DNA of 45,375 nucleotides from Methylococcaceae bacterium (GTDB lineage: Bacteria > Pseudomonadota > Gammaproteobacteria > Methylococcales > Methylomonadaceae): positions 1 through 45,375 of the forward strand of contig CANNKG010000020.1 in NCBI GenBank assembly GCA_947505105.1, given 5' to 3'. Both the position numbers and the translations under genes were made by a program. The notes below the pieces were generated by a model. The model searched no databases, was not told the DNA's origin, and worked only from the letters and a program-made list of their open reading frames with translations. Shown piece by piece: positions 8,661-43,149 of this stretch (position 1 is the first letter of the stretch; the number at the start of each line of letters is the position of its first letter).

Positions 8661-9329
8661 TCAATCACCACCACAACCACCGCCAGAGTCGCCGCCACAT
8701 CCAGAAGTGTCTCCTGAGGAATCATCCCCACTTTCTCCTCCAGAATCTCCGGCACAACCGGATGAACAACCAATGTCGCCAGCACAATAATGAGGCCGCG
8801 AAGACGCTGATTTTCGACAATTAAGGCTATAGTAAAAACCGTTATCGATCTCTAAAAGCTTATCCAGAGCAAAGAGCAACGGGAGTCGAGTTGGGTGTTT
8901 AGGGTCAAGACGCTCTTGATAGCAAGCCAGACGCCACGCTCGTTGAATACCCACTTGAGCATGCGTCGGACTGCGCATTGCTTCCGCAGGAGTGTGATGC
9001 AAAAACCGGCCTAAGGCTTTTCGACAAAAATGTTGATAGTAGCGGGTGAATAAAATAAATTCATGCCAAGCGCTATCAACCGCCTGAGAAGGCATCGCCA
9101 CCATTTTTAACGGACTTTGGTGACACAATAGAAAGTAATCGCGTAACCCCCGGAAAATTAAGTCAAGCTGACGGTCGGATAATTTTGGATAACGGCGTTT
9201 GAGTTTATTCTTGATTGCAGGTGGAAAGGTAAACCGTTCAATGTAACGCCGTTGAAAAAGGTGCCGCGCTTGATACCAAGACTGATAAACCAAGATGACC
9301 AACAATAAGATCACGAAAAATTCGGACAT
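8661..9329 (-). CDS. GRDP-like membrane protein with Cys/Gly-rich tail
   Basis: 222 aa from the ATG at 9329 (a TTG lies three codons earlier; neither has a good Shine-Dalgarno). An N-terminal membrane helix (FFVILLLVILVYQSW) is followed by a basic helical region. The core contains DSAWHEFILFTRYYQHFC and LGRFLHHTP, which match the glycine-rich-domain-protein-like family (W-HEF, Y-FC, HH-P signature). The last 45 residues are almost only Gly, Ser, Asp and Cys (SGCGGDSGGGCGGD). Such tails occur in related bacterial membrane proteins, and their role is unknown; metal binding or disulfide chemistry is conceivable. Orientation and spacing do not prove an operon with either neighbour. Confidence 0.65.
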   Translation of the reverse strand: MSEFFVILLLVILVYQSWYQARHLFQRRYIERFTFPPAIKNKLKRRYPKLSDRQLDLIFRGLRDYFLLCHQSPLKMVAMPSQAVDSAWHEFILFTRYYQHFCRKALGRFLHHTPAEAMRSPTHAQVGIQRAWRLACYQERLDPKHPTRLPLLFALDKLLEIDNGFYYSLNCRKSASSRPHYCAGDIGCSSGCAGDSGGESGDDSSGDTSGCGGDSGGGCGGD

Positions 9330-9390
9330 GGGCGACAATCATTATTCATTCAATGCAATCGGATGCTAAACGCAGGTTCAACATATACGT

Positions 9391-40641: not shown

Positions 40642-40762
40642 CGCCCAAGAAGATGAAACAACCAAATCCTGGATATTCACAGGCAAAATAGCTGGGATAT
40701 TGTCCCAACTCATCCAACTTGGACGGGTCGAGCTTAAGCAATTTTCTTCTCAGATATTAAAT

Positions 40763-41440
40763 TCACACCAGTGATGGCCGATGAAGCAATGATAACTGGC
40801 CAACACCTGAATGTTTTAGATTCTCTACCAATTCACGTCGTCCGGTTTCACCCTTGCCGCGTAAAGAACGAAGTTCTGCAGGCGTTAACAAGGTTGCTGC
40901 GATTAATTGAATTGGACCGACAGGTGTGACTAACTTGGCTGAAGCGTGTTCAGGCTGCCACAATAAAGCACCGGCTCGACCTCGACCATTTTTTAAGTGA
41001 TCAATATTAAATTCTAGTGACAATAAATCGCCCGCCAGGAGTCGTTCGCATAAACGGGCGTAACTAGCCAAGGTGTGGCTGATTTCTGCCAGCATCGGAA
41101 ATAGCCAAGTATCAGCCAAAGCGTTGAGCGGAGCATTAGTGGCGATACCGGCATCAGGCGATTCGATAAATACTTCCAAACCTAATCCGATATCACCACG
41201 CTGTCGTTCCACCCATGGATCAGATAAACCATCGGAAATAATGCAAGCATTGTTTCCGTGACGAGCTGCCAACCAAGCAGCGCCGGCTGGCCATTCCGGG
41301 CCGTCACTCATGGGTCCCATCAGAGAGGTTAATGCTGCCAATTCCGAATTAAAGTAATTACTAATCGCCTGATGGCGTGCTTCGGAAGTGATACGCAGCC
41401 GGTCTGCATAACTGAGACCGACGATAAATTGATCATTCAT
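40763..41440 (-). CDS. Unknown conserved protein encoded with nifF and LRV
   Basis: 225 aa, without signal peptide, membrane segment or Cys cluster. The features are WPAGAAWLAARHGNNACIISDGLSDPW, GDIGLGLEVFIES, LADTWLFPMLAEISHTLASY and GPIQLIAATLLTPAELRSLRGKGE. The alpha/beta pattern and the LGLEVFIES segment recall SUFU-like proteins, but I cannot name the family with confidence. Its start overlaps the LRV gene by 8 bp (ATGAATGA), so it is translationally coupled to an iron-sulfur protein and lies in a nifF operon. A role in nitrogen fixation is inferred from context only. Confidence 0.7.
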   Translation of the reverse strand: MNDQFIVGLSYADRLRITSEARHQAISNYFNSELAALTSLMGPMSDGPEWPAGAAWLAARHGNNACIISDGLSDPWVERQRGDIGLGLEVFIESPDAGIATNAPLNALADTWLFPMLAEISHTLASYARLCERLLAGDLLSLEFNIDHLKNGRGRAGALLWQPEHASAKLVTPVGPIQLIAATLLTPAELRSLRGKGETGRRELVENLKHSGVGQLSLLHRPSLV

Positions 41441-42209
41441 GCTCTAAAATCCCCATAGACAGGATATTCCGGCGATGTTGAGCCGTCTGACGAACTTCGT
41501 CGTCGCTATCGTTCAGCATTTGCTCTACTATCTCAAGTGGGGCACGCAAGGCCACCTCGTAGCGAACGGTCCAGTCGTGATCTTGTGATATTAACAGCAA
41601 ATCATCAATCTCCATGCGCTGCGCGATAATGCGACGAATAGACGTTTCGGGGTCGTTGATCATCAAACCAAGGCTAACAGTGGGTATCCGTTTGGCGACA
41701 ATACGTCGAACTTCGGTGTCCGTATCGGCCAGTAACCGAAATAATCGACCTGTCGGCAGGCGTCGAGCAACATAAACGCGTACCAAATAATCAGGATCGT
41801 CGGCCATAAGTTCCAATTGGTGTTCAGGCAAACGGTCTGCAACGGTAATTCTGACTTCTCGATCAGTATCCTCACGGAGTTGCGCTAACCATTCCACTGG
41901 GACACGATAGGCGAGAACACGCCTGACAGCTTCGTCAGCATCGTGTAACATCGGCTCCAGGCAATTGATCGGCAAGTAACGGGCAGCAATGGCACGAAGT
42001 TCCCAAGAGACATGATCAATGTAATCTGCGGCTACGGTGGGATTGTCCTTAAAAAAACGATCAACCTGACGGCTACTTTTACTGTTTACACAACAAGCCC
42101 CGGGGTTACATGCGCCGGATTCAAGTAATGTGTCGCGATGAGAACACTCAATGCAATCGTTGAGTTGGGGTAAAGCGAATTCACCTAAATTCACAGCATT
42201 GGTAAACAT
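41433..42209 (-). CDS. LRV iron-sulfur protein (leucine-rich repeat variant)
   Basis: 258 aa. The N-terminus has five Cys: C19 and C22 (CIEC), then C34, C39 and C40 (ACNPGACC). Four of these would bind the 4Fe-4S cluster known from the LRV protein of Azotobacter vinelandii. From about residue 75 there are at least six 24-residue repeats of the type VRITVADRLPEHQLELMADD, each with VR at the start and an Asp-rich turn, stacking as a right-handed helical solenoid. The family is associated with nitrogen-fixing bacteria; its function is not established. It lies 3 bp after nifF and overlaps the next gene. Confidence 0.92.
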   Translation of the reverse strand: MFTNAVNLGEFALPQLNDCIECSHRDTLLESGACNPGACCVNSKSSRQVDRFFKDNPTVAADYIDHVSWELRAIAARYLPINCLEPMLHDADEAVRRVLAYRVPVEWLAQLREDTDREVRITVADRLPEHQLELMADDPDYLVRVYVARRLPTGRLFRLLADTDTEVRRIVAKRIPTVSLGLMINDPETSIRRIIAQRMEIDDLLLISQDHDWTVRYEVALRAPLEIVEQMLNDSDDEVRQTAQHRRNILSMGILEHE

Positions 42210-42212
42210 GTT

Positions 42213-42767
42213 CTAGCTGGCCTCCGTCACATTTTTTAGCAACAAAGGCGTAACCTGTTCCAGCCAAGTTTGTAAGCGTGCATCTGTCAAATGTGGCTGA
42301 CCACGTTGATCTAATACCAGACCTACAAACTGATTGTTAATAATGGAATCAGAATGCTTAAATTCATAGCCATCAATATCCCATTGACCGATAATCTCGG
42401 CTCCAAGCCCATAAAAAACGCGATAGAGTTGGATTAGCGAACTGGCAAACCGTGATGCGTAACGCTCTTGATGACCCAAACCAAATAAGGCTACACGCTT
42501 GCCGGATAAATTGACACCATCAAGATTGGGCACGAACTCCGCCCAGTTAGCTTCTTGGCAGCCGACTGCTAATCCAGGCATTTCGCCGATACCATAACTC
42601 GGTGTTCCCAGAATCAGCGCATCGTATGCCAGCAATTCGTCAACACGGGCACGATTGATATTTTTGGGCTTGTCCGCGATGATTGGGCCTAATATGCTGT
42701 AAATCTTTTTGGCAACCAATCGGGTACTACCGGTATCGGTTCCGAAAAAAATGCCGATTTTACTCAT
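42213..42767 (-). CDS. nifF: Flavodoxin, NifF type
   Basis: 184 aa, a long-chain flavodoxin. The FMN phosphate loop is FFGTDTGSTR. The isoalloxazine loops are GTPSYGIGEMPG and FGLGHQERYASRFASSL, and the long-chain insertion covers about residues 115-140. It carries electrons to nitrogenase reductase NifH. AGGT precedes the ATG, and a sigma-54-like promoter lies about 60 bp upstream. First gene of a three-gene operon with the LRV protein; no other nif gene lies in the window. A housekeeping flavodoxin is the alternative, but promoter and partner favour NifF. Confidence 0.88.
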   Translation of the reverse strand: MSKIGIFFGTDTGSTRLVAKKIYSILGPIIADKPKNINRARVDELLAYDALILGTPSYGIGEMPGLAVGCQEANWAEFVPNLDGVNLSGKRVALFGLGHQERYASRFASSLIQLYRVFYGLGAEIIGQWDIDGYEFKHSDSIINNQFVGLVLDQRGQPHLTDARLQTWLEQVTPLLLKNVTEAS

Positions 42768-42824
42768 AAATTACCTGTGATAAATGATTGCAAGATACGG
42801 TCTTACCGCTATTTTGTAATGTAC

Positions 42825-42841
42825 AAGCAAATATCAAGCCG
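42825..42841 (-). promoter_or_regulatory. Sigma-54 promoter of the nifF operon
   Basis: On the minus strand, CGGCTTGATATTTGCTT gives GG-N10-GC with the correct -24/-12 spacing and TTTGCT at -12. RNA would begin near 42815, giving a 48-nt leader. The -24 half is weaker than TGGCAC. No TGT-N10-ACA NifA site was found in the 150 bp upstream. Confidence 0.6.
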
Positions 42842-43149
42842 AGGTGGTTTTTTTATAAATTATATTTTATTTCAGATGGTTAGACAATTTAGATAGGGTG
42901 ATAGCTTGTGGTTTAAAGATATTTTCCAGACAATTATCAACAATTCTGAAATGTTTGCTACATTGGTTTTAATAGGAATATCCGCCAAAAGTACTTAAAG
43001 TTTCTATAAATACTCCTAACTTCATCTACTCTTTTCCTTCGCACTCTACAATGGCAGAACTTCCACTAAGGGTCTAACGAACCAGAACAGCCACTGTCCA
43101 CTCAGAATCCATCCGAACCGTTTTCGCGTCTCAACTTATGCGGGGTAGT
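42842..43149. other. AT-rich spacer upstream of nifF
   Basis: It should include any enhancer sites for the sigma-54 promoter. I saw no reading frame or hairpin of note. Confidence 0.4.

Follow-up and report, generated by a model that had tools for sequence, protein, structure and literature searches.

The 45,375-nucleotide contig CANNKG010000020.1 (assembly GCA_947505105.1) of a Methylococcaceae bacterium, analysed over its full length and referred to below as the window, carries on its minus strand a putative nitrogen fixation operon, in which the flavodoxin gene nifF is followed by a gene for an LRV-repeat iron-sulfur (FeS) protein and by a third gene predicted to encode a divergent SUFU-fold protein. 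As judged from sequence comparisons, the operon is best read as a cassette under nif regulation whose products are accessory proteins that bind other proteins and would act on NifF or on nitrogenase, and it may reflect an undescribed mechanism that regulates or assists nitrogen fixation. The best explanation we can offer, to which we assign a probability of about 0.4, is that the SUFU-like protein gates the delivery of reduced flavodoxin to the Fe protein, with the FeS cluster of the LRV protein serving as the sensitive element. The link between LRV and nif was already known; the SUFU/ankyrin module behind nifF appears to be the new part.

The three genes (Table 1) are tightly packed, with a gap of 3 bp between nifF and the LRV gene and an overlap of 8 bp between the LRV gene and the third gene. 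This layout agrees in all coordinates with an earlier reading made from the letters of the window alone (the sequence-only reading), and a single operon in the order nifF - LRV - third gene is supported. The overlap recurs among the relatives: using mechanical gene calls and taking the ATG nearest to the LRV stop codon as the start of the third gene, this start was located inside the end of the LRV gene in 28 of 29 loci, with an overlap of 8, 11 or 14 bp. The GC content over the operon (0.45-0.49) is inside the range of the window.

The sigma-54-type promoter that had been proposed upstream of nifF was borne out, not by scanning the window but by its conserved position. Within the window alone, 31 sigma-54-type sites with at most three mismatches were detected compared to 38.7 in shuffled sequences, which corresponds to the chance level; owing to this lower number of matches than in the shuffles, the scan was rejected as evidence and a conservation test was used instead. 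For this, 66 Methylococcales loci with a flavodoxin orthologue were collected, 65 of which had enough upstream DNA. In this locus set, which was picked from hits and is therefore nonrandom, over-represents loci that contain LRV or the third gene, comprises near-identical genomes and includes four loci cut by contig ends (L165, L193, L194 and L203), a GG-N10-GC site with a score of at least 8 out of 11, starting at -50 to -90 of the flavodoxin start, was present in 55 of the 65 loci. Resampling with a first-order Markov model yielded a mean of 0.75 and a maximum of 5 such loci, and among mechanically called control open reading frames (ORFs) of at least 150 amino acids from the same loci, 32 of 617 showed such a site at that place. 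The conserved site often reads TGGATCGAAATTTGC, that is, TGGATCG/A-N4-TTGC, and the element of the window reads CGGCTTG-ATAT-TTGC; the latter is convincing because the site recurs at the same place in so many nifF loci. In the relatives, the same type of promoter precedes nifF-LRV, nifF-SUFU, nifF-ANK (ANK standing for an ankyrin gene) and nifF-LRV-SUFU-ANK. An exact TGT-N10-ACA sequence upstream of nifF was found in 16 of the 65 loci (resample mean 3.1, maximum 8), in four relatives at -192 to -194, and the window has a weak copy with one mismatch at the corresponding distance (Table 1). Operon and promoter are thus well supported by comparison among the loci. In Methylomicrobium buryatense, nifF, nifLA and other nif genes are co-upregulated; the available excerpt of that report names neither LRV nor SUFU (PMC7154130).

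The flavodoxin of the window scores 175.6 bits against the NCBIfam model flav_long (cut-off 146.75) and is also above the cut-off for the FldA subfamily. Although no nifF-specific NCBIfam model matched, NifF is a fair name for this protein. The genome of the window carries nifH on contig C46, and nifH is present in 56 of the 60 genomes tested that carry an orthologue of the flavodoxin (in one as a partial match below the cut-off), three of the four carriers lacking nifH being only 76-80% complete. For comparison, nifH was detected in one of 20 genomes having no flavodoxin match at E <= 1e-45, a favourable control as these genomes were chosen for the missing flavodoxin and 19 of them also lack LRV. 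In enterobacteria and Azotobacter, nifF encodes a flavodoxin that donates electrons to nitrogenase and is under nif control. Electron donation to the Fe protein is likewise the predicted role of the window flavodoxin; in contrast to the nifF operons of those organisms, LRV, SUFU-like and ankyrin genes are located behind nifF in Methylococcales.

Searching directly with the third protein yielded no match in Pfam (E up to 1), NCBIfam or PADLOC, and a PDB sequence search with its profile gave no match either. The sequence-only reading had left the protein unrecognised, which is corrected here by means of intermediate homologues and the fold. An 18-row profile of the third protein finds the Pseudomonadota protein L112 (E = 2.5e-20), which is above the cut-off of the Pfam SUFU family PF05076 (33.8 versus 25 bits), whereas two relatives of the third protein (L110 and L179) reach 16.6 and 13.3 bits against the same cut-off. 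Using the window protein in tblastn, Shinella proteins annotated as 'suppressor of fused domain protein' were obtained (4e-10, 27% identity over 73%). Aligning the family alignment A1 by hhalign with the five-row SUFU set A3 resulted in 99.6% (E = 2e-23); A3 consists of L112, two RefSeq proteins annotated 'suppressor of fused domain', whose own PF05076 scores are 16.7 and 17.2 bits (cut-off 25), and two hypothetical proteins lacking a Pfam match. An AlphaFold model calculated from the diverse alignment A2 (pLDDT 80.7, pTM 0.82) retrieved exclusively SUFU entries at Foldseek ranks 1-22, with 12 chains at E <= 0.001 and 3k5j as the best match (E = 3.3e-5), and VIA-align gave Z values of 13.1-13.6 for 12 SUFU entries compared to 3.0 for the next entry. 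An earlier, poor model from 18 close rows (pLDDT 68.3) had given Foldseek E values for SUFU of 0.1-0.3, but a VIA Z of approximately 11. The assignment as a SUFU-fold protein is well supported; we use the label 'divergent' because direct Pfam scoring fails. Two matches from a phylum sample (G584 and G610, 36 and 35 bits) look like chance stretches and were not used.

In comparison to known SUFU proteins, the third protein has the same predicted fold and the GxS motif of bacterial SUFU-domain proteins (PF05076; PDB 3k5j from Neisseria; Imm-SuFu), but it is below Pfam detection in a direct search and is placed in a nif operon. It also matches the fold of the N-terminal domain of eukaryotic SUFU, the Hedgehog suppressor (1m1l, 4km9; Z approximately 13), at 12-20% identity and in an unrelated biological setting; judged by its length, it lacks the C-terminal half, which in the eukaryotic protein has a role in Gli binding. 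The GxS motif (G71-L72-S73) and glutamates are invariant, GxS being present in all 16 rows of A2. The excerpt of the immunity protein survey lists the Imm-SuFu motif as GxS, E, E, DxxR (PMC3482391); DxxR was not located.

The second protein of the operon is clearly an LRV protein, with 96.6 bits in five stretches against PF01816 (LRV; cut-off 21.6) and 42.5 bits against PF05484 (LRV_FeS; cut-off 27). It aligns over residues 15-245, comprising the FeS cysteine segment and the repeats, with PDB entry 1lrv (E = 3.9e-73), which we take to be the Azotobacter vinelandii LRV protein, and a [4Fe-4S] cluster is predicted. The LRV structure was reportedly published in 1996; to our knowledge, a crystal structure and a link to nif have been on record for decades without a function being known for the protein. 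What distinguishes the window LRV from 1lrv is that it belongs to a nifF-linked methanotroph group with its own gene partners. A quick tree with 79 rows placed all 44 nifF-linked LRVs, together with L193, an LRV whose contig ends before nifF, in one supported group (SH-aLRT 96) separate from the nifHDK- and nifB-linked LRVs, and the FeS cysteine pattern is retained in 43 of these 45 proteins, the remaining two being broken copies. The other contexts are mainly of two types. LRV genes follow nifHDK, nifT and nifY-like or DUF6129 genes, or they occur in the order nifB-fdx-iscA-like-TPR/hypothetical-LRV-nifZ-nifZ-one gene-cysteine desulfurase or aminotransferase, the latter being seen on Paraburkholderia and Methylococcus plasmids.

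A second LRV gene is present in the genome of the window on contig C46, in the order nifH-nifD-nifK-nifT-fdx-DUF6129-LRV-unknown 320-aa protein-SIR2 (nifD, nifK, nifT and fdx named by eye). In this locus (L034, G000:C46, 6067-14048), the start of the 320-aa gene overlaps the end of the second LRV gene by 8 bp and is followed by the SIR2-like gene. The 320-aa family (c4) is present in 15 fetched loci and showed no convincing Pfam family when eight members were scanned (best E 0.057); no relationship to the SUFU-like protein was detected by hhalign (0.2%).

The distribution of the operon was evaluated in 301 Methylococcales genomes from 50 genera. LRV_FeS was found in 155 and flavodoxins at E <= 1e-45, FldA-type ones included, in 145 genomes. 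The SUFU-like gene is considerably rarer, with 32 genomes in five genera, 28 of them in Methylomonas (genus g11). In 31 of the 32 it is located 3' of nifF on a shared contig, the contig of the remaining genome (G300) ending before nifF is reached, and nifH is present in 31 of the 32, the exception being 78% complete. Conservation of the triad in diazotrophs had been named as a check by the sequence-only reading. The triad is conserved in 28 of the 301 Methylococcales genomes, in which nifF, LRV and the SUFU-like gene occur together on one contig, but is not general among diazotrophs, as the third gene occurs in five of the 50 genera of the order and nifF in other nitrogen fixers stands by itself or is followed by LRV. 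Among the 66 nifF loci, the sets located 3' of nifF were LRV+SUFU+ANK (25 loci), LRV (17), none (17), LRV+SUFU without ANK (3; the window, L066 and L194, the latter cut by the contig end), SUFU alone (2; L176 and L179), a SUFU remnant with ANK (1; L180) and ANK (1; L174). Methylomonas strain LW13 is one carrier of the complete set of four genes. LRV is not an obligate partner of the third gene, since in G276 and G126, and as a remnant in G238, the third gene follows nifF without LRV; nifF is the steadier neighbour of the SUFU-like gene. An ankyrin gene comes after the SUFU-like gene in 27 of the 32 loci and was not found in the genome of the window by a search that had no positive control. On a quick nifF tree with a weak backbone, the least number of label changes was 5 for SUFU, 7 for LRV and 6 for ANK. 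The genus-mates of the window (G001-G003) lack the SUFU-like gene, and the operon may have been either acquired or widely lost. Decayed copies were observed in L056 (LRV split into two frames), L175 (truncated LRV) and L180 (the SUFU-like remnant with a shortened ankyrin gene).

Beyond Methylococcales, named genomes were scanned with the SUFU-like family, limited to two short conserved peptides, which yielded 18 loci, comprising 13 from Methylomonas, four from other metagenome-assembled genomes and one from Pseudomaricurvus sp. HS19. The HS19 protein is 55% identical, and its gene (L110:167-895, NZ_WVVW01000015.1) is preceded by a site TGGAGCGAATTTTGC at L110 116-130 with a sigma-54-type score of 9 out of 11. 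As the pattern was written after viewing the sequence, the chance figure of 0.04 is post hoc, and the fairer control is that an equally good site occurs within 170 bp upstream of 10 out of 595 control ORFs. HS19 carries nifH, with one LRV gene approximately 5 kb from it. These findings support a putative control of the nif type that acts on the SUFU-like gene independently of nifF. The stretch L110 116-1356, containing the sigma-54-type site, the SUFU-like gene and an overlapping globin gene, might represent a second nif-linked SUFU unit. No relative of this globin was detected when phmmer (E up to 1) was run against two methanotroph ORF sets, from 67 nifF-region loci and from a first set of 60 loci, which consists of LRV regions plus the window and overlaps the former.

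SUFU domains, ankyrin repeats and HEAT-like repeats work elsewhere through protein binding. We propose that the SUFU-like protein would bind NifF or the NifF-nitrogenase complex reversibly, that this binding would set the amount of reduced flavodoxin reaching the Fe protein, and that the LRV FeS cluster, as a redox- or oxygen-sensitive element, would strengthen or relieve it. Gating of NifF is favoured because the promoter recurs in 55 of 65 loci, because the SUFU-like gene is found 3' of nifF in 31 of 32 genomes and stays next to it in the three where LRV is missing (in one as a remnant), and because nifH accompanies it equally often. It is further favoured by the conserved gene overlap, the SUFU fold, the separate LRV group with its kept cysteines, the sigma-54-type site in HS19 and the at least five changes of the SUFU label on the nifF tree. 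The partner, the direction of the effect and the role of the cluster are what we infer from these observations. A fuller version, in which the SUFU-fold protein would be a dedicated nitrogenase accessory holding or releasing NifF, with LRV as the redox switch and the ankyrin protein as an adaptor, is doubtful.

Several observations weigh against gating of NifF. Many nitrogen-fixing relatives are without the SUFU-like gene or without a nifF-linked LRV, so that neither can be generally essential, and decayed accessory copies stand beside an intact nifF. G001, G003 and G012 carry nifH or nifHDK without a close orthologue of the window flavodoxin. LRVs elsewhere are found in maturation contexts, and the conserved residues of the SUFU-like family do not indicate one partner. 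In HS19, the SUFU-like gene and a bacterial globin gene (PF01152, 90.9 bits) overlap by 4 bp, and handling of oxygen or nitric oxide (NO) would suit this pairing no less than gating of NifF. All five flavodoxin matches in HS19 are located on longer contigs than the one with the SUFU-like gene (39,665 bases), a point qualified by the fact that this contig ends 166 bp upstream of the gene. HS19 argues against an exclusive partnership with NifF.

Maturation of nitrogenase and protection from O2 or NO are serious rivals of NifF gating. The former is possible but doubtful; the LRV and SUFU-like proteins would be chaperone-type factors for nitrogenase or cofactor assembly, or for cluster supply, that merely share the nifF promoter. 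This would be in line with the LRV paralogues, which follow nifHDK, nifT and nifY-like/DUF6129 genes or sit in nifB-nifZ-nifS-like operons. It would also agree with excerpts of the literature, in which LRV is located near NifZ, TPR and SufA-like genes in Bradyrhizobium (PMC3899966) and lrv is filed under cofactor biosynthesis (PMC10521693). However, the nifF-linked LRVs are a distinct paralogue group retained beside nifF, the genome of the window already has an LRV in its nifHDK region, and the SUFU-like gene is found behind nifF even without LRV. A shielding role, in which the module would protect NifF or nitrogenase against O2 or NO, as would be expected for aerobic methane oxidisers, is unlikely. 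FeS clusters are commonly O2-sensitive, and the overlapping SUFU-like and globin genes of HS19 lie behind a sigma-54-type site. Nevertheless, the globin link is confined to one genome, no globin relative was present in the methanotroph ORF sets searched, and many aerobic relatives do without the module.

That SUFU, ankyrin and HEAT-like domains represent a hitchhiking immunity or defence cassette, which came to lie behind the nifF promoter but plays no part in nitrogen fixation, appears very unlikely. In its favour, Imm-SuFu, Imm-Ank and HEAT repeats are listed among the immunity classes and SuFu and Ank are often combined in polyimmunity proteins, according to the excerpted survey (PMC3482391). 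The ankyrin protein of the relatives matches ankyrin-bearing PADLOC models (PDC-M72A, 56.5 bits), bearing in mind that ankyrin repeats match widely, and the distribution is patchy with decayed copies. On the other hand, 28 Methylomonas genomes retain the module, its promoter and gene overlap being conserved, its carriers almost invariably have nifH (31 of 32), and in HS19 the SUFU-like gene is preceded by a sigma-54-type site of its own. Neither the LRV nor the third protein of the window matched PADLOC models, and no immunity locus was recognised around the operon by PADLOC on these two proteins, toxin families not being searched. An ordinary FldA in a cluster unrelated to nitrogen fixation is an extremely improbable reading of the flavodoxin. 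The NCBIfam calls as FldA and flav_long, the missing nifF-specific match and the nifH carriers without a close orthologue would be explained, but a second flavodoxin (55% identical) is encoded on contig C42 of the same genome, 56 of the 60 carriers possess nifH, and the promoter is of the sigma-54 type.

No literature was found that links nifF to ankyrin or nitrogenase to suppressor of fused, and a SUFU/ankyrin nif module was not described among the matches listed, most subscription papers and preprints being outside the scope of the search. An LRV group that is tied to one electron carrier and to an overlapping SUFU-fold partner narrows the question of LRV function. If the module controls the electron supply of nitrogenase, it would add another level of regulation besides transcription and DraT/DraG, namely a posttranslational gate on electron flow built from immunity-type binding domains. 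This would give LRV a function and would provide a component that might be used to engineer nitrogen fixation in aerobic hosts.

Table 1. Features of the putative nifF operon and its flanks in the window.
Feature	Position	Strand	Length or distance	Basis
Flavodoxin (nifF), long-chain, nitrogenase-linked type	42213-42767	minus	184 aa	flav_long / FldA subfamily match
LRV-repeat protein, FeS domain at N-terminus, nifF-linked paralogue group	41433-42209	minus	258 aa	PF01816 + PF05484
Third gene, divergent SUFU-fold protein (predicted)	40763-41440	minus	225 aa	AlphaFold, Foldseek, VIA, hhalign
Sigma-54-type -24/-12 element CGGCTTGATATTTGC	42827-42841	minus	first base 74 bp 5' of nifF start	conservation among loci
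Degenerate NifA-type upstream site TGTAGCAAACATTTCA (weak)	42947-42962	minus	-195	one mismatch to TGT-N10-ACA
Terminator-like stem-loop 3' of third gene (weak)	40690-40710	minus		pattern match alone

The stem-loop pattern was found twice around the operon compared to 2.5 times in shuffled sequences, and Rfam gave no match in the operon region. Elsewhere in the window, the minus strand at 8661-9338 encodes a predicted 225-aa protein with a C-terminal tail rich in Gly, Ser, Cys and Asp. Among the relatives, a gene for a formaldehyde-activating enzyme (Fae, PF08714) was located a few hundred bases 3' of the nifF operon (L062:3449-4000), and the same cluster is near the operon in L064, L065, L069 and L070, that is, in five Methylomonas loci with PF08714 detected in one scanned member. 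In G276, the nifF-SUFU pair without LRV is followed by a gene for a protein with a Lon-substrate-binding domain (PF02190; L176:6048-6701). In L174 (2804-5568; G088, from another Methylococcales family), the nifF product is 76% identical to that of the window, the ankyrin gene is directly next to nifF, and MsrQ/MsrP-type genes, as judged by eye, follow the ankyrin gene.

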